Positions 1 through 20,104 of a stretch of DNA of 64,000 nt are shown here, in pieces. Location: positions 1 to 64,000 of the forward strand of contig JAQSWS010000008.1 in the NCBI GenBank assembly GCA_029266495.1, written 5' to 3'. The translations under genes were made by a program, and so were the position numbers. The notes below the pieces were generated by a model, which searched no databases, was not told the origin of the DNA, and saw only the letters and a program-made list of their open reading frames with translations. The first letter of the stretch is position 1. Each line of letters begins with the position of its first letter. The DNA is from Rariglobus sp. (GTDB lineage Bacteria > Verrucomicrobiota > Verrucomicrobiia > Opitutales > Opitutaceae).

Positions 1-307
1 TCGAGGTATCGGCGTCACCAAAGATGATATTGCCGATGGTCACCGGAGCGCCGAGCGTGACCGTGCGGGTAGCGGTGGTGATATTATTGGTGAAAGACGC
101 AGTGAAGGCGGAGCCCTCAGCAACGATATTGCTCTGCCACAATGTTGTCCCGGGAACGGCCGGATCCCAAGTGCCGCCGCCGTCAAGTATCCACGTGCCG
201 TCGGCAGCGTGGGAAGTTTGGGCCAGCGGGAAAATCAGCGAGACGGGCAAGGCGAGCAGACAGGCGCGCAGCAGCGAGCGATACCGAGAGGACATAGTGG
301 GGGTCAT
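1..307 (-). CDS. Autotransporter-associated beta-strand repeat exoprotein, N-terminal part only
   Basis: An open frame runs from an ATG at 307 to the left edge without a stop, giving 102 codons. A second in-frame ATG at 295 is an alternative start. The product begins with a signal peptide: basic n-region, hydrophobic stretch at about residues 11-29, and a cleavage site near residue 35. A short beta-type stretch rich in Trp, Gly and Thr follows (WILDGGGTWDP). Its N-terminus closely parallels that of the next gene, including the shared FPLAQ motif before the cleavage region and the GTW motif after it. The two are therefore tandem paralogues. Proteins of this kind form beta-helical surface or extracellular proteins, often with PEP-CTERM or autotransporter ends. 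The C-terminus is outside the window, so its anchoring cannot be judged. Confidence 0.75.
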   Translation of the reverse strand, partial: MTPTMSSRYRSLLRACLLALPVSLIFPLAQTSHAADGTWILDGGGTWDPAVPGTTLWQSNIVAEGSAFTASFTNNITTATRTVTLGAPVTIGNIIFGDADTS

Positions 308-947
308 GGAGCGACTATAGCAAAATCCGGTGATCAGGTGATAGGCCGTTACTGATCGGAAAGAGGTCTTTTACCGACGAATTTCGCCTGCTTTGGCACC
401 TCAAATCGGGAGGCTCCTCCCCGTCCGCAATCCCAAGGACTGTCGTAAACCCTTTTTATTCTTGGCGAACTGCGACCAAAAAAACCCCGGGATAATCTGA
501 CGCCGCCCTAGGGGAAAATACTTGGTAGAAACTGGGGCGCGCGCCTGAAGCGAATCACGGCAGCCGATTGCTCGTCGGCATCGAACTACCGATGACTGAA
601 ACGCTGCTGGATTGCAAAGGACGGCGCTTGGCGCCGTGTTTTCGGGTATCGACTTCAGGAGGCATGCCGCAAGCGGCAGCCCTACCGTATTCACGTTCGC
701 AAATGCGCGGCTCCATGGTCGGCAATAGACACTTGAGTTGGAAATAAAGCAGATTGCCCGCTCCCACCCGATCCGACTGACGGGGCCACAAACCTGCGGC
801 GATACCGCCCCACTCGCGCACGCCGAACGGACGGCGCGGCGGTCCGTCCCTACCGATCAAGCCTGGCCGCCTGTAGGCTGCCCGGTGGTTTCATGCGGCC
901 CTCGTAGGCGGGGGCGTCTGCGGCACTTTTGCGATCCGCGGTCCTGA
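308..947. other. Intergenic region, no supported gene
   Basis: This 640-base gap separates two tandem minus-strand exoprotein genes. Open frames of about 70-100 codons exist on both strands, but they lack signal peptides or recognisable domains and are rich in Arg, Pro and Cys, as expected from chance frames in GC-rich DNA. Small inverted repeats are visible, for example GGCGC/GCGCC near 625-637 and GCCGC/GCGGC near 667-678. The promoter of the truncated exoprotein gene should lie in the left part, but no clear -35/-10 pair was recognised. Confidence 0.6.
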
Positions 948-3260
948 TCAGCGCGAAGCGATGGACGCAGGCGAGGTCGCGCCGGCATACGTCACGCGCA
1001 GCGTATTCCCTTCCTTGGACAACGTGAACCGGCCCGTGAAAGCCCGGGCAAAGCCCGTGGTGTCGAGTGTGACATTACCCAACGCGATGCCAGCGACAGA
1101 CGAGGATGTGAGCACCGGCCAGGTGTAATCCTTCGTCCCGTCAAAGCCCGCGGCCGCGCCGGTGAGGAAAACCGTGAACCGATCGAGACCGGCACCGGTG
1201 AGGCGGGCAGCGGTGAGCCCGCCTCCCGCCTGCGTGACGTCCGTGATGTCGCAGACAAAAGCCGCGCCAGCATCAAAAGTGACGGCGCCCACCCGACCGA
1301 GGCCGCCCAAACGACCGCCACGGCTCACGGTCACTTCTGAAAATTCGGAGAGCGCCCCATTCACGAGCAGGGTGCCAGCCTTGATGGAGGTCGGGCCCGT
1401 GCAGGTGTTAAAACCGGCCAGAATCGTCACGCCCGTTCCCTGCTGAATCACGGCGCCGGCCCCGCTGATCACGTTGGCAACCACATAGGTGTTGGTGCGA
1501 TTGAACACCAAGGCACCTCCGTTCGTGTCGTTGATGCTGACGCCGCCCGTGCCGAGCGTGCCGGTGCGCCCGCCGTCGCCGATGCGCAGCATGCCTCCCT
1601 TGATGGTGGTGCTGCCATAAACGTTGGCACCGGTGAGCGTCAGAGTGCCGGCCGTGTCGCCCTTGGAAAGACCACCGGTGCCACGGATATCGCCACGGAT
1701 AACAATGTCTCCGCCCGCGGAACCGCCCGTGATCACGCCCAGGTGGCTGGTCCCCACGTTCACGTTGCCGGTGACCGTCAGCCGGTTGCCCGCGACGTTG
1801 TTCGCATAAAAGCGGGTGCGCGCGAGCAAGGTGACATCGCCCGACCAGGTGTTGTCCCCCGCGCTGCTTCGAAGCGATTCCTCGATGTTGATGGAGTCGA
1901 CAACCGAGGTCAGCTGGAGCGCATTGGCAACCGTGACGCCTCCGCTCAGGAGAACCTCCCCGTTGACATTGTTCACCAGGCCCGAACCGAGCGCCCGCGA
2001 ATGCCTGACGATCAATCGGGCCCCTTGAGTAACGGTGGTTCCACCCGTGAAGTCCTGCGGCGCCGAGATGCCCACCGAGGTGGTGCCCGCCGTGCCGTTG
2101 CCCACGATCAAACCGCGGGCGCCCGTAAGGCTGTTCGTGCCGGCGATGACCAGCCGAGGGGTAATGCCATTCTGGCCTCCGCCACCCAGGCGATAGTCCC
2201 CGCCCGCAGGAGCAAGCGTGCCGGTGAAGGCGGCATTGTCCACGCCGGCCCCCATCATCAGCGATGCGTATCCTTTCATGGATACGGCCTCGATACTCGG
2301 ACCGGCCAGGAGAATGGCGCCCGCGGAGCCGGCGGCGATCCGCCCGCCCGCCAGCCAGGCGTTGACATCGCCATGGGCGCCGGCGGCGATCAATCCACCC
2401 GCCGGGGCGATCGCCACGTCACCCGCGGAAGGAAGCGCCAGCGCATTGAAAAACTGCACGCGGCCAGAGACGATCTCCACGCCGCCGGCATGCGACTGAT
2501 TGCGACCGGTAAGGTTGATCTGGGTGGTGCCGGCCGCCAGCGAAAGGAGCCCCGACCCCTGAATATCAAAAGCGAACGTGCGCGGGCTGTAGCCGGACGC
2601 GGCCAGGGTGCCGCCACCCGTGTCAACCGTCAGGACACGACCGGCGCCCAAGGTGTGCGTGGTGTCGGTCGAGCTGCGCAGAACCGCATGGTTGCCGAGA
2701 CTCACCGCACCCCCGGTCGCACCCAATCCGGAATCATTACTGGAGCCGAGACGCACTTCCCCGGCGTTGATTCCAAGCCCGCCCGTGAAGCTGTTCGCCC
2801 CGCTGAGCACGAGCGTTCCGGGCCCTTCCTTGGTCAGCCCGTCGCGACCGTCAATCACCGCACTGATGGTGGCGGTCTTCACGGTGTCCCGCATGTTCAC
2901 CGTGATCGTGGGTGTGCCACTGCTCACATCAAGCGTGAGGACGTTTGCCGGCGTGCCGTTGTTGCTCAAAATCCAACTACCCGCACTGGCTGGCGACGAT
3001 GCGCCGAAAACCAAGCCGCCAACCGTGCGGGGTGTATCAAGGCTCACGGTGCGGTCGGCCGTGATGGTCACGGCATCGAATGCCGCGAGCGAGTCGGTCC
3101 CTTCAGGCACCCCGGCCTTCCAATTGCCGGCCGTGGACCAAAGTCCATCGGCGTTGACCTTCCACGTGCCCCCGGCGCCCTTGGCGACTTGGGCAAGAGG
3201 GAAGACCAACGACAGGAGCAACGCGGACAGGCATACAGGTAACAGGGAGCGACGAGACAA
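948..3260 (-). CDS. Autotransporter-associated beta-strand repeat exoprotein
   Basis: The product has 770 residues. Residues 1-29 look like a signal peptide (MSRRS n-region, long Leu/Ala core, cleavage after the AKGAG region). The rest is low in Cys, rich in Gly, Thr, Ala and Val, and carries the repeat hallmarks of the autotransporter-associated beta-strand family: GLTKEGPGTLVLSGANSF at about 141-158 and a second GTLTLTGANVYG block near 540. Such repeats fold as right-handed beta-helices at the cell surface or in the medium. No PEP-CTERM motif or beta-barrel translocator is visible at the C-terminus, which ends in a short beta stretch (NTLRVTYAG) and an Ala/Ser tail. It is a paralogue of the truncated gene at the left edge. 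A role in adhesion or polysaccharide binding is an inference from the family and from the neighbouring glycosidases. Confidence 0.85.
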   Translation of the reverse strand: MSRRSLLPVCLSALLLSLVFPLAQVAKGAGGTWKVNADGLWSTAGNWKAGVPEGTDSLAAFDAVTITADRTVSLDTPRTVGGLVFGASSPASAGSWILSNNGTPANVLTLDVSSGTPTITVNMRDTVKTATISAVIDGRDGLTKEGPGTLVLSGANSFTGGLGINAGEVRLGSSNDSGLGATGGAVSLGNHAVLRSSTDTTHTLGAGRVLTVDTGGGTLAASGYSPRTFAFDIQGSGLLSLAAGTTQINLTGRNQSHAGGVEIVSGRVQFFNALALPSAGDVAIAPAGGLIAAGAHGDVNAWLAGGRIAAGSAGAILLAGPSIEAVSMKGYASLMMGAGVDNAAFTGTLAPAGGDYRLGGGGQNGITPRLVIAGTNSLTGARGLIVGNGTAGTTSVGISAPQDFTGGTTVTQGARLIVRHSRALGSGLVNNVNGEVLLSGGVTVANALQLTSVVDSINIEESLRSSAGDNTWSGDVTLLARTRFYANNVAGNRLTVTGNVNVGTSHLGVITGGSAGGDIVIRGDIRGTGGLSKGDTAGTLTLTGANVYGSTTIKGGMLRIGDGGRTGTLGTGGVSINDTNGGALVFNRTNTYVVANVISGAGAVIQQGTGVTILAGFNTCTGPTSIKAGTLLVNGALSEFSEVTVSRGGRLGGLGRVGAVTFDAGAAFVCDITDVTQAGGGLTAARLTGAGLDRFTVFLTGAAAGFDGTKDYTWPVLTSSSVAGIALGNVTLDTTGFARAFTGRFTLSKEGNTLRVTYAGATSPASIASR

Positions 3261-3490
3261 GGTGGTGCAGGGATTAATAGCCCCACCTTATCAAAACGGC
3301 GCGATCAGCGGTTAGCGCTCTGCTGATGCAACGTGTGTCGATTCCTGATCCGGCCTCAGGCGCACCCATGGGAGATCACCCCACCCACTCCACACCGCCG
3401 AAAAGAAGCCGGACAAAAGATGTCCGTCTTCCTGGCTCGGCCCACTCCGGCCCCGTGCGAACGCCACCATGAAAGAATGACGCCGCACCC

Positions 3491-5266
3491 TCACGCCGTC
3501 GCCGAACGGGGATTCCTCGATTTCAGCCGCGGACCCGACGCCACCTGCATGACCCGCTCCCCACCTGTGCGGAATTGCCGCTGGAATTGGCCGGGGGTTT
3601 GTCCCGTGACCCGGCGAAACACCTTCGTAAAATGGATGCGATCAGCGAATCCCGATTTCTCCGCAACATCGTCAATCAGCGCGCCGGGAGCCTTCAAAAG
3701 CTGGCTCGCGTGCTCGATACGAACGCGTCGGATATAGACACTCAGGTCAACCCCGGTGTGTTGTTTAAATTTCCGGCTCAGGAAGTCCGGATGGCAGCGC
3801 AGGTGGGCGGCGAGGTCCTTGATGTTAAAGGTCTCCTCCACATGCGCGGCGACGTAACGCATTGTTTCCTGAATTACGTAAGGCGGCGGCGGACCGGAGG
3901 CCGGCACATACTTCTCCAGTTCGCGTCCGTTCGAAGCGATGACTTCGCGATACCAGTGCGCCGAGTCCTTCAACGTGCGCCGCTGGGTGGCAAAATCGAC
4001 ATGGACCAGGCCAAAACGATGCTTGTAGCCCTCCTGCCACTCAAAGTTGTCCATGAACGACCACACAAAATACCCCCTCACATCAATGCCTTCAGCCAGT
4101 GCGCGGCGCAGCTGAAGCAGGTAATTAATCATGAACTCGATCCGCACCTGATCGTGCACACGGTCATCCCGGCCCACCATGTCACAATTCGACATGCCGT
4201 TCTCGGTAATGACGATCGGGAGCTTGTAGGTTTCCGCCAAAAATTTGGGCCCCCAATAAAGCGCTTCGGGCGTCTGGCTCCACAAATAGAGCGTGCGCGG
4301 GTGGCCCGGCGGCAATGGCGCGTGGACGGGCGCGCCATTCGGGCCCGCCTTGATCGCATCAGCCTGGAAAATATTGCATCCGTAAAAGTCGATGGGCTGC
4401 TGGATGATTTTAAAGTCCGCCTTCGTCGCATGCGGCGCCGCAGCGCCATAAGCACGCAAACCCTCCTCCGGGTATCCACCCAGCACGACGGGATCACCCC
4501 ACCACCGGTTGTTCCATACCCCGTCGGGCCACACGGAATTCGTCGCGGTGCGCGCCGCATTGATGTCCTCGGGCGCCTCCGTCGCCGGATAATAAATCGT
4601 GCCCGCCGGCGACCAGCCCACGATCGGCGTCTTCTTCGCCCGCTCACGGATCACCTCCACCGCGCGCCCGTGCGCCAGCAGCGCATGATGCCCCGCCAGC
4701 AACACCTCGGGGAGATCGAGCTTCAGCCCCGGCGCGTGCTCTCCGCTCGCATGACCGAGACCGATAAAGCACTGCGGCTCGTTGAGCGTCACCCAATGGG
4801 TCACCCGGTCCGACAGGCGGTCGACCACCGCCGCCGTGTATTTGGCAAACCATGACGGACTGTCGGGGTTCAACCAGCCGCCGCGCAGGAAAAGTTGATA
4901 CGGAAAATCCCAGTGAAAAAGCGTGACCCACGGCTGCACGCCCGCGGCGAGCAGCTCGTCCACCAGACGGTCGTAGAAAGCCAGCCCCGCATCGTTCACC
5001 GCCCCCGTGCCCGCCGGCATGACCCGTGGCCACGACACCGAAAACCGGTAGGCGTTCAGCCCGATCTGCGCCATCATCGCCACGTCGTCCTTGTAACGGG
5101 CGTGGTGATCGCTGGCGACCTTGCCGTTCTGACCGTCCCACACGTGACCGCGTCGCCGCGTGAACATATCCCAGACCGACGGACCTTTGCCGTCGGCATC
5201 CCACGCGCCTTCGATTTGGTAGGCGGACGTCACCGCGCCCCAGTGAAACTTGTCTGGAAAACTCAT
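3491..5266 (-). CDS. GH1 beta-glucosidase fused to a C-terminal AraC-type DNA-binding domain
   Basis: The product has 591 residues. Residues 1-455 are a full-length GH1 beta-glycosidase (TIM barrel). The acid/base motif TLNEPQ has Glu163, the nucleophile motif VITENG has Glu355, and substrate-binding motifs such as FHWD and the late NFEWQEGY are intact, so activity is expected. After a short Pro-rich joint (SGPPPPY, about 457-463) residues 466-565 form a complete AraC/XylS double helix-turn-helix, ending in the family signature FTKVFRRVTGQTPGQF. One uninterrupted frame spans both parts. There is no signal peptide, so it should act in the cytoplasm. The gene is divergent from a second GH1 gene that lacks the DNA-binding part and heads the beta-glucan locus. 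I infer that this is a regulator whose ligand domain is a glycosidase, or an enzyme that senses its own substrate. The start matches the paralogue's N-terminus. Confidence 0.93.
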   Translation of the reverse strand: MSFPDKFHWGAVTSAYQIEGAWDADGKGPSVWDMFTRRRGHVWDGQNGKVASDHHARYKDDVAMMAQIGLNAYRFSVSWPRVMPAGTGAVNDAGLAFYDRLVDELLAAGVQPWVTLFHWDFPYQLFLRGGWLNPDSPSWFAKYTAAVVDRLSDRVTHWVTLNEPQCFIGLGHASGEHAPGLKLDLPEVLLAGHHALLAHGRAVEVIRERAKKTPIVGWSPAGTIYYPATEAPEDINAARTATNSVWPDGVWNNRWWGDPVVLGGYPEEGLRAYGAAAPHATKADFKIIQQPIDFYGCNIFQADAIKAGPNGAPVHAPLPPGHPRTLYLWSQTPEALYWGPKFLAETYKLPIVITENGMSNCDMVGRDDRVHDQVRIEFMINYLLQLRRALAEGIDVRGYFVWSFMDNFEWQEGYKHRFGLVHVDFATQRRTLKDSAHWYREVIASNGRELEKYVPASGPPPPYVIQETMRYVAAHVEETFNIKDLAAHLRCHPDFLSRKFKQHTGVDLSVYIRRVRIEHASQLLKAPGALIDDVAEKSGFADRIHFTKVFRRVTGQTPGQFQRQFRTGGERVMQVASGPRLKSRNPRSATA

Positions 5267-5550
5267 GCAGGGTAAGGGGTTCTCATCGAGTCTCGCCCCG
5301 TTCAGAGGAAAACCAAATTCGGCGGACTTTTACCCGAGATGGTCAATCGCCGACCAAAAAGCGAGCAAATCCTCCCCTGATAAGCCCAATATTGGCGTCG
5401 GGAATTGACACATATAACATCAGCAGATGGCTAACACGAACAGGCCGGATGGTGGTATTGTGCAGTCATGGGCCTTACCCCGCCTGCCCCCATGCAGTAG
5501 CAGCTTGGTGAGCCCCGCCAACGCGTCCCCCGCCCTTTTTGTCGTTTTCC
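5267..5550. promoter_or_regulatory. Divergent promoter region between the two GH1 genes
   Basis: This 284-base spacer lies between the divergent starts of the GH1-AraC fusion and the GH1/GH16 gene run, so it should hold both promoters and any operator of the fused regulator. A TTGACA hexamer at 5405-5410 on the plus strand is a possible -35 box. With a 17-base spacer the -10 would be TGGCTA at 5428, a weak match. The region is AT-richer than its surroundings around 5330-5430. No duplicated half-sites could be assigned with confidence. Confidence 0.4.
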
Positions 5551-7014
5551 ATGAGTTCATCGTTTCCTCCCAATTTCACCTGGGGCGCCGCCGCGGCCTC
5601 CTACCAAGTCGAAGGCGCCTGGCAGGCCGATGGCAAAGGCGAGTCCGTCTGGGACATGCTTTGCCACCAAAAAGGGCGCATCTGGGAAAATCACACCGGT
5701 GACGTCGCCTGCGATCACTACAATCGCTACAAGGAGGACGTCGCCCTCATGTCCAAGGTCGGCCTGCAAGCCTACCGCCTCTCCGTTTCGTGGCCGCGCG
5801 TGCTCCCCGCAGGCACCGGCAAGGTCAACGAAGCCGGCCTTGGTTTCTACGACCGGCTCATCGACGAGCTGCTCGCCACCGGCATCCAGCCTTGGGTGAC
5901 GCTTTTCCACTGGGATTTCCCCTACGAGCTCTTCCTGCGCGGCGGCTGGCTGAATCCCGACAGCGCCAAGTGGTTCGCCGATTACACCGCGGTCATCGTC
6001 GACCGCCTCTCCGATCGCGTCAGCCACTGGATCACGCTCAACGAGCCCCAGTGCTTCATCGGCCTCGGCCATCTCCACGGCGAACACGCCCCCGGCCTCA
6101 AGCTCGGCCTGCACGAGGTCCTCCAGGCCGGCCATCATGCCCTCCTCGCCCACGGCATGTCGGTGCAAACCATCCGCCAGCGCGCCAAAACCAAGCCCGT
6201 CATCGGCTGGGCCCCCGTCGGCTGTATCCATTATCCTGTTACGAATTCCCCTGCCGACATCGCCGCGACCTACGCCGGCATGGACTCGGTCCACGATGGC
6301 CATTGCTGGAACAACCGCTGGTGGGGCGACGCCCCCGTCCTCGGCTCCTATCCCGAGCAGGGCTTGCGCGCCTATGGCAAAAACGTCCCGCGCTTCCGCG
6401 ACTCCGATTTCGACATCATCAAGCAGCCCCTCGATTTCTACGGCTGCAATATCTACCACGCCACGCCCACCATGGCCGGCCCCAACGGCGAGGTCGTCGT
6501 CGCCCCGCTCGCGCCCGGCTTCCCCCATACGCATTTCCTCTGGAAACGCACCGACGAGGCCCTCTACTGGGGCACCAAGTTCCTCGCCGAGCGCTACAAG
6601 CTCCCCATCGTCATCACCGAAAACGGCCTCACCCTCCCCGACTGGGTCTGTCTCGACGGCGCCGTGCACGACACGCAGCGCATCGATTTCCTCCACCGCT
6701 ATCTGCTGGGGCTCAAGCGCGCCATCGACGAAGGCGTCGACGTGCGCGGTTATTTCCAGTGGTCGATCATGGACAACTTCGAGTGGGCCGAGGGCTACAA
6801 GCACCGCTTTGGCCTCATCCATGTCGATTACGAAACCCAGAAGCGCACCCTCAAAGACTCCGCTCACTGGTATCGTGAAGTCATCCGTTCCAACGGCGCC
6901 AACCTCTCCCCGGCCCGCGGAGCGACTGGAAAGACCGCGGGTGCGAAACCATCTGCCTCCGGCACGCCCCTTCACGATTCCGAACAGCCCCTTCTCTCAA
7001 CGATCAGCCCCTAA
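5551..7014 (+). CDS. GH1 beta-glucosidase
   Basis: The product has 487 residues from the ATG at 5551, chosen because the N-terminus (MSSSFPPNFTWG) then aligns with the paralogue; an upstream in-frame TTG at 5539 would add only four residues. It is a complete GH1 enzyme: acid/base TLNEPQ (Glu165), nucleophile VITENG (Glu357), and NFEWAEGYKHRFGL near the end of the barrel. No signal peptide is present, so it likely cleaves imported beta-glucosides or oligosaccharides in the cytoplasm. It is strongly similar along its length to the GH1 part of the divergent fusion. After the barrel it has a low-complexity tail of about 35 residues in place of the AraC domain. The next gene starts 13 bases downstream, indicating one transcript with the GH16 genes. 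Confidence 0.93.
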   Translation: MSSSFPPNFTWGAAAASYQVEGAWQADGKGESVWDMLCHQKGRIWENHTGDVACDHYNRYKEDVALMSKVGLQAYRLSVSWPRVLPAGTGKVNEAGLGFYDRLIDELLATGIQPWVTLFHWDFPYELFLRGGWLNPDSAKWFADYTAVIVDRLSDRVSHWITLNEPQCFIGLGHLHGEHAPGLKLGLHEVLQAGHHALLAHGMSVQTIRQRAKTKPVIGWAPVGCIHYPVTNSPADIAATYAGMDSVHDGHCWNNRWWGDAPVLGSYPEQGLRAYGKNVPRFRDSDFDIIKQPLDFYGCNIYHATPTMAGPNGEVVVAPLAPGFPHTHFLWKRTDEALYWGTKFLAERYKLPIVITENGLTLPDWVCLDGAVHDTQRIDFLHRYLLGLKRAIDEGVDVRGYFQWSIMDNFEWAEGYKHRFGLIHVDYETQKRTLKDSAHWYREVIRSNGANLSPARGATGKTAGAKPSASGTPLHDSEQPLLSTISP

Positions 7015-7027
7015 GCGACACGATTCC

Positions 7028-9082
7028 ATGACCCACGTAAATACCCCTCCCGCCGGACAGTCGGCTTCGTCCGGCCGTTTGTCCGCCCGCCCATCGCGAG
7101 CATCGGGGAGGTTCTCCATTCTGATCACGACGCTGGTCCTGGCCTTCGGAACAGGCGCCTCGGCGCAAGTGGGCGGCATCGCCCCGAAGTTTCTGTTCGA
7201 TCCAAACTCCCCCAGGGCGTCCACCCAGATCACGCCGAGCACCGACCAGGTGAGCGTCACCACCGGCAAGGACGGGATCACGGTCAACATCGCGGGCGGC
7301 TCCGAGGAATACCCCGGCATCACCCTCAAGTCGGAAACGGGCTCCCCTTGGGACCTGTCTCCGTGGGGACGCATCGAGGCCAAAATCACCAATCTCGGGA
7401 CAACCAATCTCCAAGTCAGCCTGCGGGTGGATAACAAACAGGACGGCAGCAGCAGCAACTGCGAAGGCGTCAACCTGAAGCCAGGAGACAGCAAGATCAT
7501 CAAGGTCATCTTCGGCTATACCTACGGATTCAAACCCGGCTTTCAGTTGAACCCGGGGGCCATCACCCGCCTCCTCTTTTTCTCCGCCGGAAAAAAAACC
7601 ACCGCGCGGGCGTTCCGCATCGAAGACCTTCAAGCCTCCGGTTCGGCCGGGGAAAAGCCTCCGGTTGATCCCAGCACCGCACGCGTCAAACCGGCCGGCG
7701 GAGTGCTCCTCGGCAAGGGCGTGAAGATCGATGCCGCCAAGCAAGTGGTGGCCAAAGGCGAAGCCAAGGCCGACCTCACGGCGGATGGCAACCTCCAGAT
7801 CGCCTTTACCGGCGGCCCGAAAAGCGAGTCGGTCGTCCTCAAGCCAGCCATCGGCAGCTGGCAGTTGACCGATGCCTTTCAAGTTCAGATCAAACTCAAA
7901 AATACCGGCAAAACGCCGGTGACTCCCTCGGCCCGCCTTGAAAGCAAGGGCGGCAGCAGCGATACCATCACCGTCTCATCCCCGATTCCTCCCGGCGGCG
8001 AAACTGAAATCACGATTCCCTTTGCCGCCGTCGTCCCGCCGGTGGTCCCGACCGATCCCAAGCAGGAGGTCTATGGCAAGGGTTCGTGGAGCGAGAACAA
8101 CTGGGCGCCCCAGGCGGGCACCGGCACCAAGTTCACCAGCGACTGGGCCAAAGGCGTCACGATCATCGCCGACAAGACACCCGGGGCAAAGAGCCTGACG
8201 GTCACCTCCATCGTCGCAAATGTGCCGGAGTCGGACATCCCGTCCTGGGTGGGCCAGCGGCCGCCCGTCGCCGGCGATTGGGTCAAGACGCTGGACGAAA
8301 ACTTCGACGGCGACGCCATCAACCTCAACCGGTGGAACGTCTACACCGACAACTTCTGGGACAAACGCACCCACTTCAGCAAAGACAACGCCATCGTCAA
8401 AAACGGCAAACTCACCCTCCACTTCGAAAAAAAGACCGGCTACCACAACGACGACCCCAACGACACGAAGACCGTCGGCAAGACCGACTACGCCTGCGGC
8501 TACGCCGACTCCTATGGAAAATGGCGCCAGCTTTACGGCTACTTCGAGGCCCGCGTGAAACTCCCCAAGGCTCCCGGCCTCTGGCCCGCCTTCTGGCTCA
8601 TGCCCGACCGCGGCCCCGAGGTGGGCCCCCAATGGAAACGCGCCAGCACCGCGAAGGGCGGCATGGAGTTCGACATCCTCGAGTTCCTCTCCGGCTGGGG
8701 TCCCTACCGCTACAACCTCGCCTTCCACTGGGACGGCTACGGCAAAGAGCACAAATCCGGCGGCACGCCTTACCACTACGTCCTTCCCGACAAGGACGGC
8801 TACATCACCACCGGCGTTTACTGGGTCCCCGGGCTCGCCGTTTACTATTGCCAAGGCAAGGAAGTCCTCCGCTGGGCCAGTCCCCGCGTCTCCAACGTTC
8901 CCTCCTACGTCATGTTCGACATGGTCACGGGCGGTTGGGACAACCAGCCTCTGGAAGACGCCAAACTCCCCGATGATTTCGTGATCGATTACGTCCGCGT
9001 CTGGCAGCGCAAGGATCTGGCCTCGTCCGTGGACGGACCGATGCCCAACCAGGGTCTGCCCTCATCGCTCACCGACAAATAA
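7028..9082 (+). CDS. Secreted modular GH16 endo-beta-glucanase-type enzyme
   Basis: The product has 684 residues from the ATG at 7028, chosen because it gives a signal peptide: hydrophobic core about 29-43 and the likely cleavage site ASA|Q at 46/47. Two beta-sandwich, carbohydrate-binding-like modules follow at about 55-205 and 222-398. A GH16 catalytic domain lies at about 419-670. The catalytic motif EFDILE places the nucleophile at Glu547, the assisting Asp at 549 and the acid/base at Glu552. GH16 enzymes with this ExDxxE bulge cleave beta-1,3/1,4-glucans, agar, porphyran or carrageenan. The pairing with GH1 genes favours a beta-glucan, but the substrate is not settled by sequence reading. 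It sits between the GH1 gene and a second GH16 gene in one tight run. Confidence 0.88.
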   Translation: MTHVNTPPAGQSASSGRLSARPSRASGRFSILITTLVLAFGTGASAQVGGIAPKFLFDPNSPRASTQITPSTDQVSVTTGKDGITVNIAGGSEEYPGITLKSETGSPWDLSPWGRIEAKITNLGTTNLQVSLRVDNKQDGSSSNCEGVNLKPGDSKIIKVIFGYTYGFKPGFQLNPGAITRLLFFSAGKKTTARAFRIEDLQASGSAGEKPPVDPSTARVKPAGGVLLGKGVKIDAAKQVVAKGEAKADLTADGNLQIAFTGGPKSESVVLKPAIGSWQLTDAFQVQIKLKNTGKTPVTPSARLESKGGSSDTITVSSPIPPGGETEITIPFAAVVPPVVPTDPKQEVYGKGSWSENNWAPQAGTGTKFTSDWAKGVTIIADKTPGAKSLTVTSIVANVPESDIPSWVGQRPPVAGDWVKTLDENFDGDAINLNRWNVYTDNFWDKRTHFSKDNAIVKNGKLTLHFEKKTGYHNDDPNDTKTVGKTDYACGYADSYGKWRQLYGYFEARVKLPKAPGLWPAFWLMPDRGPEVGPQWKRASTAKGGMEFDILEFLSGWGPYRYNLAFHWDGYGKEHKSGGTPYHYVLPDKDGYITTGVYWVPGLAVYYCQGKEVLRWASPRVSNVPSYVMFDMVTGGWDNQPLEDAKLPDDFVIDYVRVWQRKDLASSVDGPMPNQGLPSSLTDK

Positions 9083-9130: not shown

Positions 9131-11665
9131 ATGTTAAAATCTGTCCGACTTTCCCGACTGGCGCTCGCCCCATTGCTCGTTTTCTCCCTCGCGACGGTCT
9201 TCACCGCCCGGGCCGCCACGCCACCACCGGCCTCCGGCGACCTGCTGGTCCCCGCCACCGTCGATCTGTCGGCTTTCAAAACGGAGAAGGACCCCGTCCT
9301 CAGCCTCGACAGCTCCACCGACGCCCCCGCCATCAGGGTCGAGTTCCCCGGCAATAGCGGCTACCCCGGCGTCGACCTTCCCATCCCCGGCGGCTCGTGG
9401 GATCTCTCCGCCTACTCCGCCGTCGAAGTCGAACTGGCCAACATCAGCCAGGCCCGCCTCAACATCGGCCTCCGCATCGACAATCCCGGCGATTGGAAAA
9501 AATCCCCTTGGAACAGCGGCACCGTCTGGCTCTCCCCCGGCGAAACCAAGAAGCTCAAGGTCACCTTCGGCGAGTCGTATGGACGTCCCGGATACGCGCT
9601 CGATCCTTCCCGCGTCAACCGCATCAAGATCCTCGCGGACAATCCCAAGCAGACCGCCGCCATCCTCATCAAGTCCGTCCGCGCCGTCGGCGCCGCCTCC
9701 GCGTCAAACGGCGTGAGCTCCCCGGCTCCCGCCAGGACCGTGGCCGTCATCCCCGCCGCGGCGTCCACCGCCACAGCCGCGCCCGCCGCGGTCCTCTTCA
9801 CGCCCACCGCCGATAACATCGGCTCCATCAAAACCGAGAAGGACCCCGTCCTCAGCCTCGACACCTCCACCGACACACCCGCCCTCAAGGTCGAATTCAT
9901 CGGCGGCAGCGGCTACCCAGGCTTCGATTTCCCGATCTCCGGCAATCTGAATCTCTCCGGATTCGCCGGCATCCAGGTCGACGTCACCAACATCAGCCAG
10001 TCGCGCCTGAACCTCAATCTGCGCGCCGACAACCCCGGCGACTGGAAGAAATCCCCTTGGAACACCAACAATGCCTGGGTCGCCCCCGGTGAAACCAAGA
10101 CCGTCAAACTCACCTTTGGCCAATCCTACGGCAATCCCGGCTACCTCCTCGATGCCTCCCGCATCAGCGTCATCAAGCTGTTCGCCGCCACCCCGAAGCT
10201 GACCTCCGCGGTCCTGGTGAAAAATCTCCGCCCCTTCGGCACCGCCACCGCTGCCGCCGCCTCGCCCTTCGGAAGCACCAGCGAACCGGCTCCGATCGCC
10301 ACCGCCCCGGCCGCACCCGCCGGCGAAGCCGGCACCGACGCCACCTTCTCGCCCGCCATCGACGGCGAGTTGCTCAACCTCTCCAAGTCGAACCCGCTCG
10401 CCGGATTCAACTACAACGAATCCTCCGCGGTCGTCGAAAACGGCAAGATCAAGGTCACCTTCAACGCCGGGTCCAACTATCCCAACATCCAGTTCCCCAT
10501 TCCCAAGGGCGGCTGGAATCTCTCCGCGTTCGGCGGCATCGAGCTCACCGTCACCAATCCCACCGCAAGCAAGGTCCGCGTGTTTCTCCGCGCCGACAAC
10601 CCCGGCCACTGGAAGGCCGAGCCTTGGAACACCGAGAACCTCACCCTCGGCGTCGGCGAGACCAAGACCATCAAGCTCACCTTCGGCCAGCAGAACGGCG
10701 CCCCCGCCTTCCCGCTCAACCCGGCCCGCATCATCGCCATCCAGCTCTTCACCAACCGTCCGAAACCCGACACCACGCTCCTCCTTTCCGGCCTCAAGGC
10801 CTCCGGCAGTCCCGCGGATGCCGCCAATAAACTCTCGTTGAGCAAACCCGAGGACCGCAACGTCCCCGCCGTCCTTCCCGCCTGGCTCGGCCAGCGCCCT
10901 CCCGTCGAAATCCCCGGAGAGTGGGTCAAGACCCTCGACGAAAATTTCGACGGCAACAAACTGAACGACAAGCTCTGGACCCCCCGCTTCCCGTGGGACG
11001 GCCCCCAGCCCGGCCAGTTGCAACGTTACGCCCCGGAAAACGTGATCGTCGGCAACGGCGTCGCCGCCTTCAAAGTCGAGAAACGCCACGGCCACGAAAA
11101 CAACGATCCGTCCCGCCCCACCCGCGAATACACCTCCGGACTGATCCAAAGCTACGACAAATGGACGCAGCTCTACGGCTACTTCGAAGCCCGCATCAAG
11201 GTCCCCTACGTCCGCGGTCTCTGGCCCGCGTATTGGATGATGCCCGACCGCGGTCCCTCCGCCGGCAGCCAGTGGAAACGCCGCGACACCGGCAACGGCG
11301 GCATGGAAATCGACATCATGGAAATCCTCTCCGAGTGGGGTCCCGGCCGCAACAGCGTCGCCACCCACTGGGACGGCTACGGCGCCGATCACAAACAATG
11401 GGGCACCTCGCAGATCTACTACGGCCCCACCGCCGACGGCTGGCACGTTTACGGTCTGCTCTGGGAACCCGGCAAACTCACCTGGTTCGTGGACGGCAAA
11501 AAACTGGCCGAATGGCAAAACGAGCGCGTCGGCTCCGTCCCCACCTACCTTAAATTCAACGTCCAGCTCGGCGGCTGGGCCACCAAGAACGTCGATGACG
11601 CCAGCCTCCCCGCCGTCATGGAGGTCGACTACACCCGCGCCTGGCAACTCAAGAGCCGCCAATAA
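9131..11665 (+). CDS. Secreted GH16 enzyme with three tandem carbohydrate-binding-like modules
   Basis: The product has 844 residues. The signal peptide ends near residue 29 (TARA|A). Three homologous beta-sandwich modules occupy about 50-187, 233-371 and 418-559, separated by Ala/Pro/Thr linkers. Modules 1 and 2 share long identical stretches such as TEKDPVLSLD and NPGDWKKSPWN; module 3 is more diverged. The GH16 domain at about 598-841 carries EIDIME with Glu726, Asp728 and Glu731 as the catalytic triad. The linker into the catalytic domain (WLGQRPPVE) and the domain itself are similar to the preceding gene, so the two GH16 genes are paralogues with different numbers of binding modules. Secretion followed by cleavage of a laminarin- or mixed-linkage-type glucan is inferred from the family and the GH1 neighbour. 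Confidence 0.88.
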   Translation: MLKSVRLSRLALAPLLVFSLATVFTARAATPPPASGDLLVPATVDLSAFKTEKDPVLSLDSSTDAPAIRVEFPGNSGYPGVDLPIPGGSWDLSAYSAVEVELANISQARLNIGLRIDNPGDWKKSPWNSGTVWLSPGETKKLKVTFGESYGRPGYALDPSRVNRIKILADNPKQTAAILIKSVRAVGAASASNGVSSPAPARTVAVIPAAASTATAAPAAVLFTPTADNIGSIKTEKDPVLSLDTSTDTPALKVEFIGGSGYPGFDFPISGNLNLSGFAGIQVDVTNISQSRLNLNLRADNPGDWKKSPWNTNNAWVAPGETKTVKLTFGQSYGNPGYLLDASRISVIKLFAATPKLTSAVLVKNLRPFGTATAAAASPFGSTSEPAPIATAPAAPAGEAGTDATFSPAIDGELLNLSKSNPLAGFNYNESSAVVENGKIKVTFNAGSNYPNIQFPIPKGGWNLSAFGGIELTVTNPTASKVRVFLRADNPGHWKAEPWNTENLTLGVGETKTIKLTFGQQNGAPAFPLNPARIIAIQLFTNRPKPDTTLLLSGLKASGSPADAANKLSLSKPEDRNVPAVLPAWLGQRPPVEIPGEWVKTLDENFDGNKLNDKLWTPRFPWDGPQPGQLQRYAPENVIVGNGVAAFKVEKRHGHENNDPSRPTREYTSGLIQSYDKWTQLYGYFEARIKVPYVRGLWPAYWMMPDRGPSAGSQWKRRDTGNGGMEIDIMEILSEWGPGRNSVATHWDGYGADHKQWGTSQIYYGPTADGWHVYGLLWEPGKLTWFVDGKKLAEWQNERVGSVPTYLKFNVQLGGWATKNVDDASLPAVMEVDYTRAWQLKSRQ

Positions 11666-11769: not shown

Positions 11770-14700
11770 ATGCCACGACGCCCTTCAAAATCCCCTGACC
11801 AGCCAACGGGCATTGGTCATTCGTCATTGGTCATTCCGCGCCAGCGGCGCGGCGGCTTCGCACTGCTCATCACGATCACATTGCTGGCCTTTCTGGTGTT
11901 GTTGCTCGTCTCACTGGCGGCGCTCACCCGTGTGGAGACCCAGGTGGCGAGCAACAACCAGCAGATCGCGCAAGCCCGCCAAAACGCGCTCATGGCGCTC
12001 AACATCGCCATCGGCCAGCTCCAGAAATACGCCGGCCCCGACCAGCGCACCACCGCCCGGGCGGACCTCGAGAATGGCGCCACCGTTCCCAACGCCCGCT
12101 GGACCGGCGTTTACGGCAGCGCAGTTCCTGCCGACTATAACCAAACCCCTTCCGCGATCGCCACCGCACTCACCACCCCCGCCAATATCAACGCGACCAC
12201 CGGCTCGCCCGCCCGCCTGTTAACCTGGCTCGTAAGCGGCAACGAAAATGGCGCGTTTAATCCATCCAGCGATGTAGGTAGCAAAGGCGAAATCACGCCC
12301 ACCGCCACAGCGCTTGCAGCTGGAATCGAATTCAAACCGAACGTCGCTACCGGCGGCCTCAACGGCTCGGCCACCACTGCTACCCCGCTCACGATCGTCG
12401 CGGGTGGCACCACGCATGAGGCCAGCTTGCTGGTCGGCCCCGGCAGTGTGCGCACGGCTGTCGATAGCGGCCATGCCTTGGATTATGTCGCCGCCCCGCT
12501 GGTAAAAATCGAGGTTCTCGAGAACACCTTGCCAGGCTTCGCCGCGTCCAGCACCACACCCAAAACCATCGGACGCTACGCTTGGTGGGTGGGCGACGAG
12601 GGCGTCAAAGCCCGCGCGAACCTGCCCCTGACGACAGATGCATCCCAAAAACCCAAAGCATTTGTCAGCAGCCAACGGAACGCCGTGGAGCTGATGAACA
12701 ACAATGTCGCAGAAAGCCCCGCACCTTCCCTTACCGCTCCCCGTATCGGCACCTTATATGACCTCACCCAGCCCGTGGAGCGTATCCTTGCGACGAAGCA
12801 GTTTCCCCTGTCGGGCACCAACTCAGCCGCGTCAACCGCGCTAACCACCGCCCTCGAATACCGGTTTCACGACCTCACCACCCACTCCACCAGCGTCCTC
12901 GCCGACACCTACGCCGGCGGTCTCAAGCGCGACCTCTCCACATTCCTCGCCGCCCCCGGGGTTGTAGCCGACGACGCCAGGACCCTGTTCACGCCCGAGC
13001 CCTCGTCCAACAGCACCGTGTCCACCTTCGCCATGCCTACATGGGGACATTTGCGTTCTTTTGCACAAATGGTGGTTCCGACGACACCTGGTGCCGAAAA
13101 GCTCACCTTCACCCCACCCGTCTTGGACAAGACCGGCGAAGCCAACCATGTCGGCGTCGTCCCGGTCATGACTTACATGGCGGTGGGGCTTCGCTATGAG
13201 GTTTCCGGAGGCAACTTAAGACTTCGTTATTATCCGGTGGTCGTGCTGTGGAATCCATATACCGCCCCGATCAAACCCGCCGAGTATGAAGCCGGTCTCA
13301 GTGTTACCTATAACACCCGCTTAAGAGTGCAGATTGAAGACTCCACTACAGCGGTGCAGCCCGGCTGGCGAGTGATCGAACAGCGGGATTTTCGCTACGC
13401 AGGGCGCGTTGTTCCCAGCGGCTATCGCACCGATGGCGATTACGAATACATGCGCTTTCTGGTTCGAGTTACTACTGATATCCAGGCAGGCCAAAGTTTG
13501 GTTTTCACATTGGATAACGCGTCAGACTCTTATAACCCTGGCCTAAATGTGCTGACTCATGGGCTGAATGATAACCATTACGTCTACTCGGTGGGGGAGC
13601 CTATTCCAGAACCTGGAAAAAACCTCCGGGTGGTAAGCAGATTTTATCCATTTACGGAGACCTCCGCCGGCGTTTATTCCACCACCTCCAACTCCGGCGG
13701 TTCCAGCTTAAGCCATGATGGCGGCGGCACCATTTTTGCCTATCTCGGCGCCCCTCGTCCAGTGGTTGCTCCCAAGCAATGGGATCCAACCAAAGCCACC
13801 GTTAACTGGTATCAGATCATTCAAAAAGCTGGGTTCGATGACAACGACGTCAGACGCGTGACCACCGAATATAAGGTGACGCCACCAGGCACCTTTTTCA
13901 CCTCCACCCCCGCCCCTGGCAGTTCTTTTACCACCCCTTTTACTGGCACAGAAAGCGTCATTCAAGACGGCGTAAATCTTGAGAACGGTTACGTGGGCGA
14001 TGAACCTGCCTTTACTATAGGGGTGGCTGCGGTTTTTTCCGCAATGGGCAGCAACAAGAACTTAAATAAAGGCACCAATTTAAAACAGCGATGGATCGCA
14101 CAGAGTAACCTCCGCGCTCCCTATTCGTTCCGCACTACCCAGGATCTCAACTACAACGCACCTTATATCGGACAGGTTGGCTCAATCGGATTGAGCTACA
14201 ATAAGTGGCCGTTGCACTTCTTCACCGACGATCCTGGCGACGAAGCCTCGGCCGGAGCCGGCCATGATTGGGATAGCACTACCAACAAGCCTGTCAGGGC
14301 TACCCTTTTTGAATTCAGGCCGGATGACCAACCCCTGTTTTCGATCGGCCAGCTTCAACATGCCAATTTGTCGCTCATCGCGAGCTATCCCTCCTATCCG
14401 GTCGGCAACAGCTTGGCGGACTTCCGTCTGACTGTCACTCAGCTCGCCGACAACGTGGCCGTCGCCCCGCTCTCGGAAATGGCGTCATTCACAAAACAAG
14501 CCGTCTATTATGACACCTCTTGGCTACTCAACCACGCGCTCTGGGATCGCTATTTTTTCTCCACGGTTCCCTTGGTCGGCTCGGTTCCGAAGCCTCTTCC
14601 CAATACACGACACATCGTTCATCTGAACAGCGGACTTCAAGATCCAGATACCGCAGCGGCCGGCCTCCTTCTCTCAGGTGGATTTAACATCAATTCCACG

Positions 14701-15513
14701 TCTGAACAGGCATGGCGCGCAGTGCTCGCCGGTCTCAATAAACTCGCCTACAATCCGCTCAACCCGTCCGATTCTTCCGCGCCTGCGCTTGTCAATGCGC
14801 TCTCTCGTTTCTCTCGCCCGACGGCCGGCACTGATCCCGCGCAGCCATGGGAAGGCTACCGATCACTCAGTGACGAGCAAATCGCCCAACTGGCCCGCAA
14901 CATCGTCGCCCAGATTCGCATTCGCGGCCCCTTTGTCTCGCTGGCCGACTTCATCAACCGCCGGCTCATCGACAATACGACTGCGGGTGCACCCAGCGAC
15001 GAACGTCTTAAGGGTGCGATTCAGGCAGCCATTGATGCGACCACAACAACAGCGGGTGGCTATCCTACCAATGATGCCACCAATCCTGCGTCATTTTTCG
15101 CCTCCGACCCCGTCATAACCGGACTCGCGAGTCAGCCGTTCGTCCTAAATAACATGCGTGGCACGACGACCGCCGGCGTCCCACCTTATAGCGGACGTTC
15201 TGCCTTCGCGCCCAAGTTCATCACCCAAGGAGATGTGCTTTCAACCATCGGCGCAGGCCTCTCTGCACGTTCGGACACGTTTATTATCCGCACCTATGGC
15301 GATACCATGAATCCCGTGACTGGCGACATCAACGGTCGCGCCTGGTGCGAAGCCGTCGTTCAACGCCTGCCCGAATACGTCGCCCCCTCCATCGCTCCCG
15401 AAACCCGGCTCGACGATTCCCTGCCGAGCTCCCTCGCCAAAACCACCAATCAAGCATTCGGCCGTAAGTTTAAAATCATCTCCTTCCGATGGCTATCCCC
15501 CTCCGATATTTGA
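11770..15513 (+). CDS. Giant pseudopilin-like surface protein (Verru_Chthon cassette A-like)
   Basis: The product has 1247 residues. A basic leader (PRQRRGG, about 23-29) precedes FALLITITLLAFLVLLLV, a prepilin-type hydrophobic helix. The residue at +5 is not Glu, as in GspK/PilX-type minor pilins. The next part (RVETQVASNNQQIAQARQNA) continues as the amphipathic pilin helix. The remaining ~1150 residues are a secreted region of no recognised fold. They contain an SLADFINRRL motif late in the protein and end in FRWLSPSDI. The helix, the late motifs and the ending are shared with the gene at 57768, so this is a conserved family. It resembles the family annotated as Verru_Chthon cassette protein A; I could not run a profile search. 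It lies 104 bases after the GH16 gene and overlaps the next gene by 25 bases. Confidence 0.72.
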   Translation: MPRRPSKSPDQPTGIGHSSLVIPRQRRGGFALLITITLLAFLVLLLVSLAALTRVETQVASNNQQIAQARQNALMALNIAIGQLQKYAGPDQRTTARADLENGATVPNARWTGVYGSAVPADYNQTPSAIATALTTPANINATTGSPARLLTWLVSGNENGAFNPSSDVGSKGEITPTATALAAGIEFKPNVATGGLNGSATTATPLTIVAGGTTHEASLLVGPGSVRTAVDSGHALDYVAAPLVKIEVLENTLPGFAASSTTPKTIGRYAWWVGDEGVKARANLPLTTDASQKPKAFVSSQRNAVELMNNNVAESPAPSLTAPRIGTLYDLTQPVERILATKQFPLSGTNSAASTALTTALEYRFHDLTTHSTSVLADTYAGGLKRDLSTFLAAPGVVADDARTLFTPEPSSNSTVSTFAMPTWGHLRSFAQMVVPTTPGAEKLTFTPPVLDKTGEANHVGVVPVMTYMAVGLRYEVSGGNLRLRYYPVVVLWNPYTAPIKPAEYEAGLSVTYNTRLRVQIEDSTTAVQPGWRVIEQRDFRYAGRVVPSGYRTDGDYEYMRFLVRVTTDIQAGQSLVFTLDNASDSYNPGLNVLTHGLNDNHYVYSVGEPIPEPGKNLRVVSRFYPFTETSAGVYSTTSNSGGSSLSHDGGGTIFAYLGAPRPVVAPKQWDPTKATVNWYQIIQKAGFDDNDVRRVTTEYKVTPPGTFFTSTPAPGSSFTTPFTGTESVIQDGVNLENGYVGDEPAFTIGVAAVFSAMGSNKNLNKGTNLKQRWIAQSNLRAPYSFRTTQDLNYNAPYIGQVGSIGLSYNKWPLHFFTDDPGDEASAGAGHDWDSTTNKPVRATLFEFRPDDQPLFSIGQLQHANLSLIASYPSYPVGNSLADFRLTVTQLADNVAVAPLSEMASFTKQAVYYDTSWLLNHALWDRYFFSTVPLVGSVPKPLPNTRHIVHLNSGLQDPDTAAAGLLLSGGFNINSTSEQAWRAVLAGLNKLAYNPLNPSDSSAPALVNALSRFSRPTAGTDPAQPWEGYRSLSDEQIAQLARNIVAQIRIRGPFVSLADFINRRLIDNTTAGAPSDERLKGAIQAAIDATTTTAGGYPTNDATNPASFFASDPVITGLASQPFVLNNMRGTTTAGVPPYSGRSAFAPKFITQGDVLSTIGAGLSARSDTFIIRTYGDTMNPVTGDINGRAWCEAVVQRLPEYVAPSIAPETRLDDSLPSSLAKTTNQAFGRKFKIISFRWLSPSDI
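11812..11852 (+). repeat. Dispersed repeat: paired decamers plus GC-rich hairpin, copy 1
   Basis: Two identical ATTGGTCATT decamers separated by CGTC (11812-11835) are followed at once by CCGCGCC-AGC-GGCGCGG (11836-11852), a perfect 7-bp stem with a 3-base loop. The same arrangement with ATC in the loop lies at 57837-57877. The element is inside the coding frame of the pseudopilin: the decamers encode the non-conserved leader and the hairpin encodes PRQRRG, the basic patch just before the prepilin cleavage site. Confidence 0.8.
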
Positions 15514-18887: not shown

Positions 18888-18988
18888 CGGAAGACCTCCC
18901 CCGTCGCGCGTCGGGAAACAACATATTTGGAGTCAGTGGATGATTAACGCCGCCACTCGCCGTTCTGCTACAATCCGAAGCCCCGATC

Positions 18989-20104
18989 GTGAACGCCCCC
19001 CGCCCCCCCTCCTCCGAAGTTTTGCCCCTCGTGATCTCGCGCGCCCGCCGCCTGCGCCGGGGCATCAACCTCAGCCATTGGTTTTCCCAAGTATATCGGG
19101 AGCCTGGTTACGTTCCCGCCCACTTCGACACCTACATCCGCACGTCTGACTTCGCACTGATTCGCGACATGGGCTTCGACCACGTGCGCTTCGCCATCAA
19201 TTGCGAACCGATCCTCTCCGCCACGATCAATGGCAGGCTGCCCTCCGCTTACCTCACCCGCATTCAGGATCGCATTTGCGAGATGCATGACCACGGCCTC
19301 GCCGTCATCGTCGACATCCACCCCGAGGACGCCTTCAAAAAACGGCTGGCCCATTCCGACGCCGCCGTCGCCACCTTCGTCGACTTTTGGGTGCAACTCG
19401 CCGGCGCGCTCTCGCCCTTCTCTCCCGAGGACACTTTTTTTGAAGTGCTCAACGAGCCCTGCATCCACAATGCCGCCCGCTGGAATCGCATCCAAAACAC
19501 CACGGTCGCCGCGATCCGCCGCACCGCTCCCGAACACACGATCATCATCTCCGGAGATCAATGGTCCCAGCTCCCCGAACTCCTCAAGCTGACCCCGCCC
19601 GACGATCGCAATATCATCGCCAACTTCCACCTCTACGACCCCACCGCCTTCACCCACCAAGGCGCAGGCTGGTCCCCCGCCTGGGCCATGTTCACCAAGG
19701 GCCTCACCTACCCGGCCGATCCGGCGTTCGTCGATGAACTCCTAAAAACCGTGACCGATGCCGACGCGCGCGCGCAGCTCGCCGAATACGTCCAGGTCAA
19801 CTGGAGCGCCCGCGCCTACGACGATTTCATTCAGCCCGCCGTCACCTGGGGCCGGGCCCATGGGCTCCTCCTCACCTGCAACGAATTTGGTGTCTATAAA
19901 AAGTTCAGCCCCCGCGCCTCCCGGCTTGCCTGGGTGCGCGATGTCTCGGCCGCGCTTTCCAACAACGGCATCGGCTGGACCATGTGGGACTACGCCGGTG
20001 ACTTCGCCGTCGTCGTCAATGAAAACGACACCCGGGTCCCTGATCACGACCTCGTCGCCGCCCTCGGACTTCCGGTCCCGATACCTGAAAATTGGCGTCT
20101 CTAG
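18989..20104 (+). CDS. GH5 endoglucanase-type glycosidase
   Basis: The product has 371 residues from a GTG start at 18989. It is a complete GH5 (clan A) barrel. RRLRRGINLSHWF is the usual opening. FEVLNEP carries the acid/base Glu156, and LTCNEFGVY carries the nucleophile Glu299. The HLYDP motif and the late WTMWDYAGDF, which stacks sugars, are also present. No signal peptide is visible from this start, and the upstream region gives no better one, so the enzyme may act inside the cell on oligosaccharides, unlike most GH5 cellulases. It follows the solute-binding gene after 129 bases that include a palindrome, so it may have its own promoter. A beta-1,4- or beta-1,3-glucan substrate fits the GH1/GH16 neighbours. 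Confidence 0.88.
   Translation: MNAPRPPSSEVLPLVISRARRLRRGINLSHWFSQVYREPGYVPAHFDTYIRTSDFALIRDMGFDHVRFAINCEPILSATINGRLPSAYLTRIQDRICEMHDHGLAVIVDIHPEDAFKKRLAHSDAAVATFVDFWVQLAGALSPFSPEDTFFEVLNEPCIHNAARWNRIQNTTVAAIRRTAPEHTIIISGDQWSQLPELLKLTPPDDRNIIANFHLYDPTAFTHQGAGWSPAWAMFTKGLTYPADPAFVDELLKTVTDADARAQLAEYVQVNWSARAYDDFIQPAVTWGRAHGLLLTCNEFGVYKKFSPRASRLAWVRDVSAALSNNGIGWTMWDYAGDFAVVVNENDTRVPDHDLVAALGLPVPIPENWRL

Follow-up and report, generated by a model that had tools for sequence, protein, structure and literature searches.

Among the closest described systems are AraC/XylS regulators with a PocR sensor (PF10114). Their helix-turn-helix (HTH) domains fall into one clade with those of the GH1-AraC fusions reported here, and four of the six such regulators compared lie near an unfused GH1 gene within the stretch retrieved; but their sensor is PocR, whereas that of the fusions would be a GH1 glycoside hydrolase barrel. 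RsgI6, an anti-sigma factor of Clostridium thermocellum, exemplifies how a glycoside hydrolase domain with hardly any activity can act as a sensor: its GH10 domain of very low activity is kept for binding, and the protein regulates polysaccharide genes (excerpt of PMC4711584). RsgI6 holds its GH10 domain outside the cytoplasm on an anti-sigma factor, whereas the fusion joins a GH1 domain, which we read as cytosolic, to an AraC DNA-binding domain; a Pfam search of the fusion at E ≤0.001 gave GH1 and HTH matches only and no anti-sigma domain. The staphylococcal AraC proteins AryK and Rsp (700-760 aa) resemble the fusion in having an AraC HTH within a long protein, but their HTH lies near the N-terminal part of the model and the partner domain is a different one. 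The non-HTH part of AryK and Rsp resembles a glycoside hydrolase. The fusion scores 57.3 bits against the model NF047455 (cut-off 850) and 33.2 bits against NF033869 (cut-off 400), far too low in both cases, and owes these scores mainly to its HTH part. Enzyme folds are also reused as ligand sensors or receptors in MocR/PdxR, ROK repressors and Klotho; Klotho is itself a GH1 protein, but these systems involve other enzymes or have no DNA-binding domain. The GH1 beta-glucosidase Ks5A7 (9l0n) shares the fold, 45% identity and both catalytic glutamates with the fusion, but has no HTH and carries Tyr where the fusion has Phe300.

No description of a GH1-AraC fusion was found among the papers listed in searches of open-access full text, a weak negative, with most subscription journals lying outside that body of literature. 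Our analysis suggests that the enzyme part of the fusion became a sugar sensor turning on adjacent glucan-digesting genes.

The fusion protein and its gene neighbourhood

The window analysed is a stretch of 64,000 nucleotides from Rariglobus sp. (contig JAQSWS010000008.1, positions 1 to 64,000). The fusion and its parts are located as follows.

3491..5266, minus strand: GH1-AraC fusion gene, a single open frame of 591 aa (Pfam, NCBIfam; 30 homologous fusions)
3926..5263, minus strand: GH1 barrel, residues 2-447, the proposed sensor domain (PF00232, 473.4 bits; AlphaFold model; Ks5A7 superposition)
3572..3871, minus strand: AraC double HTH, residues 466-565 (HTH_18; NCBIfam AraC-type models from about residue 465; helices in the model)
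3506..3514, minus strand: Asn585-Pro-Arg587 of the C-terminal tail, a tail common to most fusions

A preliminary description of this DNA had reported one uninterrupted frame encoding a GH1 domain and a complete AraC double HTH. The translation of 5266-3491 on the minus strand indeed runs through 591 aa without a stop, and Pfam and NCBIfam agree on the domains. The Glyco_hydro_1 match to residues 2-447 is above its curated cut-off, as is that of HTH_AraC to residues 531-562 (51.4 bits), and HTH_18 matches residues 485-564 with 71.9 bits (cut-off 33.6). The fusion also passes the NCBIfam equivalog model for GH1 beta-glucosidases, TIGR03356 (514.6 bits, cut-off 478.5). None of the three Pfam families found in the window's fusion is PocR (PF10114). 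The same description had taken a cupin as the usual partner of AraC domains, but in the closest AraC relatives without a fused GH1 the sensor is PocR.

The AlphaFold model of the fusion, built on an alignment of 24 sequences, has a mean pLDDT of 85.1 and a pTM of 0.76, with residues 568-591 at pLDDT <50. Superposed by VIA-align, which covered the GH1 part only, the model matches the Ks5A7 beta-glucosidase (9l0q_B) with Z 54.8 and rmsd 1.7 over 450 aligned residues. A Pro-Arg C-terminal tail (broad pattern) is present in 27/30 fusions versus 0/6 PocR-AraC proteins; in the fusions it comes after a low-pLDDT stretch. By eye no signal peptide is visible, and a cytosolic protein is the best reading.

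The genes around the fusion are these.

5551..7014, plus strand: divergent unfused GH1 beta-glucosidase (PF00232, 488.5 bits; ATG at 5551)
7028..9082, plus strand: GH16 glucanase-like protein (PF00722, 36 bits; start chosen at 7028)
9131..11665, plus strand: GH16 glucanase-like protein (PF00722, 70.2 bits)
11770-15513, plus strand: 'c2' protein, 1247 aa (weak match to TIGR02600, Verru_Chthon cassette protein A, 32.6 of 332.3 bits)
948..3260, minus strand: PATR (passenger-associated-transport-repeat) protein (PF12951, 58.5 bits), a likely regulon member
18989..20104, plus strand: GH5 cellulase-family protein (PF00150, 127.8 bits), a likely regulon member
1-307, minus strand: second PATR-type ORF, cut by the left edge (operator-like site: 340-375)

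The GH1 across the divergent promoter lacks the regulator part, as had been described, and is 67% identical to the fusion over residues 2-456. The starts of the GH16 proteins resemble export signals by eye, and a solute-binding protein is also encoded near the window's fusion. A gene cluster holding GH16 proteins accompanies the fusion at 24/30 loci, and 'c2' genes at 17/30; these counts come from greedy ORF calling with several loci cut by contig ends, and the GH16 identity was confirmed by Pfam in the cluster members scanned.

Erosion of the catalytic site

Three codons of the catalytic site are central to the comparison.

4778..4780, minus strand: codon of the acid/base Glu163, kept in the window's fusion (TLNEP); Asp in 6/30 fusions
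4202..4204, minus strand: codon of the nucleophile Glu355, kept in the window's fusion (ITENG); Gln in 1/30 fusions and Lys in 1/30
4367..4369, minus strand: codon of Phe300, at the place of the Tyr that hydrogen-bonds the nucleophile (alignment; role of Tyr from an excerpt of PMC6467970)

Both glutamates reported in the preliminary description are thus present. We aligned 30 fusions with 66 unfused GH1s. Position 300 is Tyr in every unfused GH1 (66/66), and Ks5A7 has Tyr there as well; in the fusions it is Phe in 27/30, including the window's, Ser in two and Tyr in one. The Phe at this position had been overlooked by the earlier description. Position 300 was equated with Tyr284 of the Thermus thermophilus beta-glycosidase from the Asn-x-Tyr motif and the alignments. 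In simulations Tyr284 hydrogen-bonds the nucleophile, and the Tyr284Phe mutant, as cited in the same source, has a transglycosylation yield of 76% versus 36% at a lower rate (excerpt of PMC6467970). Another paper counts the equivalent Tyr among those residues by which the pKa of the catalytic Glu is modulated (excerpt of PMC4013033).

At least one catalytic Glu is lost in 7/30 fusions versus 0/66 unfused GH1s (Fisher test, P-value 0.00017, with related sequences counted as independent); read by eye from the GH1 tree, these losses represent about four events. The sugar-holding pocket is mostly kept: Gln17, His118, Trp119 and Trp410 are present in 30/30 fusions and Glu409 in 29/30, while Asn162 is replaced by Ser in 5/30, Asn298 is changed in two, Asn356 in two and Trp402 in one. 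All nine of these residues are intact in the window's fusion. Columns 13, 14, 219, 242 and 300 at least separate the fusions from their sister GH1s, in the part of the alignment compared and without a control. Judging from these alignments, catalysis is eroding in the fusions, and the loss of Tyr300 and Glu with the pocket mostly kept fits a sensor that must bind sugar and need not cut it. The first GH1 domain of a tandem beta-glucosidase of known structure (PDB 8in1) has Asp at the acid/base position and Phe at 300, as found in fusions.

The preliminary description had proposed a regulator built on a GH1 pocket that might also be an enzyme. The GH1 barrel as sensor stands, by inference, whereas the dual role is weakened. 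A trigger enzyme of this kind, whose GH1 part usefully hydrolyses or transglycosylates beta-glucosides while the HTH reports its occupancy, would agree with the retention of both catalytic Glu in the window's fusion and in 23/30 overall, and with its passing the TIGR03356 equivalog cut-off; in addition, the Thermus Tyr-to-Phe mutant still works and favours transglycosylation (excerpt of PMC6467970). Against it stand the loss of Tyr300 in 29/30 fusions and of catalytic Glu in seven, neither ever seen in the unfused GH1s, and the unfused GH1 paralogue adjoining the fusion. We regard the dual enzyme-regulator as rather unlikely.

A predicted operator at fusion loci

Five close relatives have a 36-bp block in common in their divergent regions (consensus AGnAAATGACACATnnnnnATCAGCAGAnGnCTAAC). 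The predicted sites in the window are listed here.

5400..5435, plus strand: predicted operator before the GH1 gene; -10-like TATTGT at 5456-5461; conserved in five relatives
3311..3346, minus strand: predicted operator before the PATR gene; -10-like TAAGGT 20 nt downstream
18913..18948, plus strand: predicted operator before the GH5 gene; -10-like TACAAT at 18969-18974; not in the training set
340..375, minus strand: weaker operator-like site before the left-edge PATR-type ORF; 20.5 bits; TATAGT 20 nt downstream

With a profile of the five sites, additional ones were recovered ahead of the genes for PATR and GH5 and, in relatives, ahead of 'c2' genes, against a best score of 10.9 bits in shuffled copies of 20 loci as a control. 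The 3311-3346 site sits 51 nt before the first start codon of the PATR gene. With a profile from other genomes (14 sites, themselves found earlier with a profile containing the 5400 site), the 5400, 3311 and 18913 sites rank at the top of the window plus the stretch of own-genome contig C108, at 41.8, 34.7 and 24.4 bits, while the reversed profile stays at ≤3.5 bits. A 17-site sequence model gave six matches at E ≤10 in the own genome, from 150 of 399 candidates scored. The best is the 5400 site (E 2.5e-7), followed among those named by 3311 (27.5 bits, E 1.6e-5) and a C108 site before its GH1, but all three are training sites; the others are 18913 (whole-genome E 0.078), one on C34 and one on C165. 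The 340 site is outside these six. The preliminary description had proposed 5267-5550 for tests of DNA binding: the site at 5400-5435 does fall there, but the further predicted sites at 3311-3346 and 18913-18948 lie outside it.

Among seven relatives, sites at E ≤1 occur in four, which are exactly the four with the fusion (same genus and same family), partly by construction because these genomes supplied training sites; three same-genus genomes without the fusion have no site at E up to 1. Seven of eight further fusion genomes have a match at E ≤1. Strong matches are confined to G110, G136 and G154 and include training sites, those in G186, G209, G167 and G177 are weak (best E 0.14-0.86), and G198 has no match at E ≤1. 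In G136, contig C68 has two operator-like sites (L207 and L211) distant from the fusions; the ORFs that follow them at 75-79 nt encode products with a secreted look by eye, and a wider regulon is possible.

The sequence downstream of the sites was not used in finding them. A TAnnnT box follows 18/18 sites (the 17 training sites and 18913), at an offset of 19 nt in seven and 20 nt in 11. At other adjacent offset pairs, excluding those sharing 19 or 20, the box is found in at most 2/18 downstream and 3/18 upstream. The box is kept in 10/13 weaker sites picked from the five-site profile list and in 8/13 non-training matches of the eight further fusion genomes (5/13 lack it), two of these eight also belonging to the weaker picked sites. 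It is also kept in 6/6 non-training matches with a locus from the own genome and the seven relatives (18913, one each on C34 and C165, three from G047 and G008), one of which is among the weaker picked sites; another G008 match had no locus. The chance expectation is about 1 in 32 per site, with orthologous sites not independent of each other.

AraC-type activators bind at a site overlapping the -35 region, and the usual 17-nt spacer would put the -35 over the end of the predicted operator. A scan of 5200-5620 for sigma-70 promoters and terminators found none; the absence of a sigma-70 promoter is expected if an activator replaces the -35, but is no proof. The direct repeat to be expected for an AraC dimer is no more than suggestive within the operator: at a 22-bp offset it has a P-value of 0.006, but 0.07 over offsets 17-26, and repeat finding in 5240-5600 returned no direct repeats.

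One could suppose that the HTH serves as a mere tether of an active glucosidase to DNA, or persists as a relic, while some other regulator acts at the operators. A PocR-AraC paralogue with a related HTH, which could use these sites too, does exist in the own genome, in G010 and in G008, and an operator site precedes the GH1 of the C108 locus. But the HTH is conserved, with 27/100 columns at ≥95% in 29 fusions, and G047, G110, G136 and G154 have operator sites yet no PocR-AraC match at E 1e-20 besides the fusions themselves. The site is therefore best assigned to the fusion, and a tether or relic is very improbable.

Distribution and evolutionary origin

Thirty distinct full-length fusions were found in 20 genomes, all inside the Verrucomicrobiota class of the window. 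The overlapping sets searched comprised 141 relatives (E 1e-100), 372 genomes of the order (1e-150), 384 of the class (1e-160) and 387 of the phylum (1e-160); one extra copy came from the genome-contig scan and was counted to G186. Among the matches listed in the phylum search (387 genomes), none outside the class reaches the HTH. The genome-contig scan returned 35 loci, 23 with a fusion, 10 with an AraC-type HTH not fused to GH1 and two unmatched. Among the carriers are isolates of Cerasicoccus (C. arenae, C. frondis and C. maritimus; Verrucomicrobiota, Opitutia, Puniceicoccales) and two Opitutaceae MAGs. The position beside a divergent unfused GH1, within about 0.5 kb, is conserved at nine loci besides the window (L040-L044, L082, L085, L099 and L101); L095 likewise has a divergent unfused GH1, and at L098 the ORFs from greedy calling share 174 nt.

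On plasmids, tblastn of the whole fusion matched 1691 records, 18 of them covering ≥80% of the query; the best 15 of the 1691 were looked at, and two were inspected in detail. The Azospirillum record has an unfused GH1 gene followed by a separate ORF, in the Indioceanicola record the frame with most of the match stops before the match end, and neither holds a fusion. The C-terminal part alone matched 1747 records, all at <60% identity, of which five were looked at. That two genes were joined by an assembly or frameshift artefact, as a draft genome of 172 contigs might make one suspect, was already discounted in the preliminary description and is refuted because 30 distinct fusions occur in 20 assemblies, 19 of them further genomes with full-length copies and the Cerasicoccus isolates among them. 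The absence of the fusion from all relatives, named in that description as a refutation, is thereby contradicted.

A quick maximum-likelihood tree was built from 96 GH1 domains (SH-aLRT support, without bootstrap); in it a single branch (SH-aLRT 97) has the 30 fusions on one side. The next branch (support 90) holds 21 unfused GH1s, 20 of which share a stretch with a fusion or a PocR-AraC gene, the exception being L047. A tree of 71 HTH domains unites the fusions with six standalone AraCs in a clade (100/99) that leaves out the remaining AraCs of the comparison, including those fetched from the own genome. All six standalone AraCs have the PocR sensor (Pfam PF10114), and the fetched stretches of L039, L102, L123 and L124 are those that hold an unfused GH1 as well. 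Own-genome contig C108 has no fusion at its GH1, GH16 and 'c2' genes, but a PocR-AraC at a distance of about 3 kb. Taken alone, the HTH tree requires two changes rather than one for the 30 fusion HTHs and does not show the fusions as one clade, but a single fusion clade is not rejected (AU test, P-value 0.33); the case for a single origin is based on the GH1 tree. Since the GH1 parts form one clade and the HTHs group with PocR-AraCs, a duplicated GH1 copy apparently took the place of the PocR sensor.

Proposed mechanism

We consider it probable that the fusion is a cytosolic AraC-type activator sensing imported beta-glucosides in a crippled GH1 barrel. Secreted GH16 glucanases would release beta-gluco-oligosaccharides outside the cell, and a small one of these would enter the cell and bind in the crippled GH1 pocket, to be turned over slowly or not at all. 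With sugar bound, the C-terminal double HTH would occupy the operator overlapping the -35 region and switch on the genes for GH1, both GH16 proteins, the PATR protein and GH5. The absence of a visible signal peptide on the fusion and the export-like starts of the GH16 proteins make such a cycle likely, with glucanases outside, import, a cytosolic GH1, and the fusion as sensor. That the ligand is an imported beta-glucoside is inferred from the genes alone.

A more specific version is speculative, and we think it improbable. Here the signal would be a slow-turnover sugar-enzyme complex, perhaps a covalent glycosyl-enzyme, with Tyr300Phe stalling deglycosylation; the occupied barrel would act as a molecular timer that holds AraC on, the Asn-Pro-Arg tail would plug the empty pocket in the off state, and the lineages that later lost Glu would be pure binding sensors.

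Significance

If a sugar-sensing activator is the right reading, the fusions provide a well-sampled series, within one class, in which a functional glucosidase was recruited to sense for transcription. The series would run from a PocR-AraC beside a GH1, through a single fusion, to loss of the helper Tyr in nearly all members and of Glu in some. With an operator and a regulon predicted, ligand and binding can be tested directly, and GH1-AraC proteins could serve as beta-glucoside biosensors. More broadly, proteins annotated as GH1 beta-glucosidases can turn out to be regulators.
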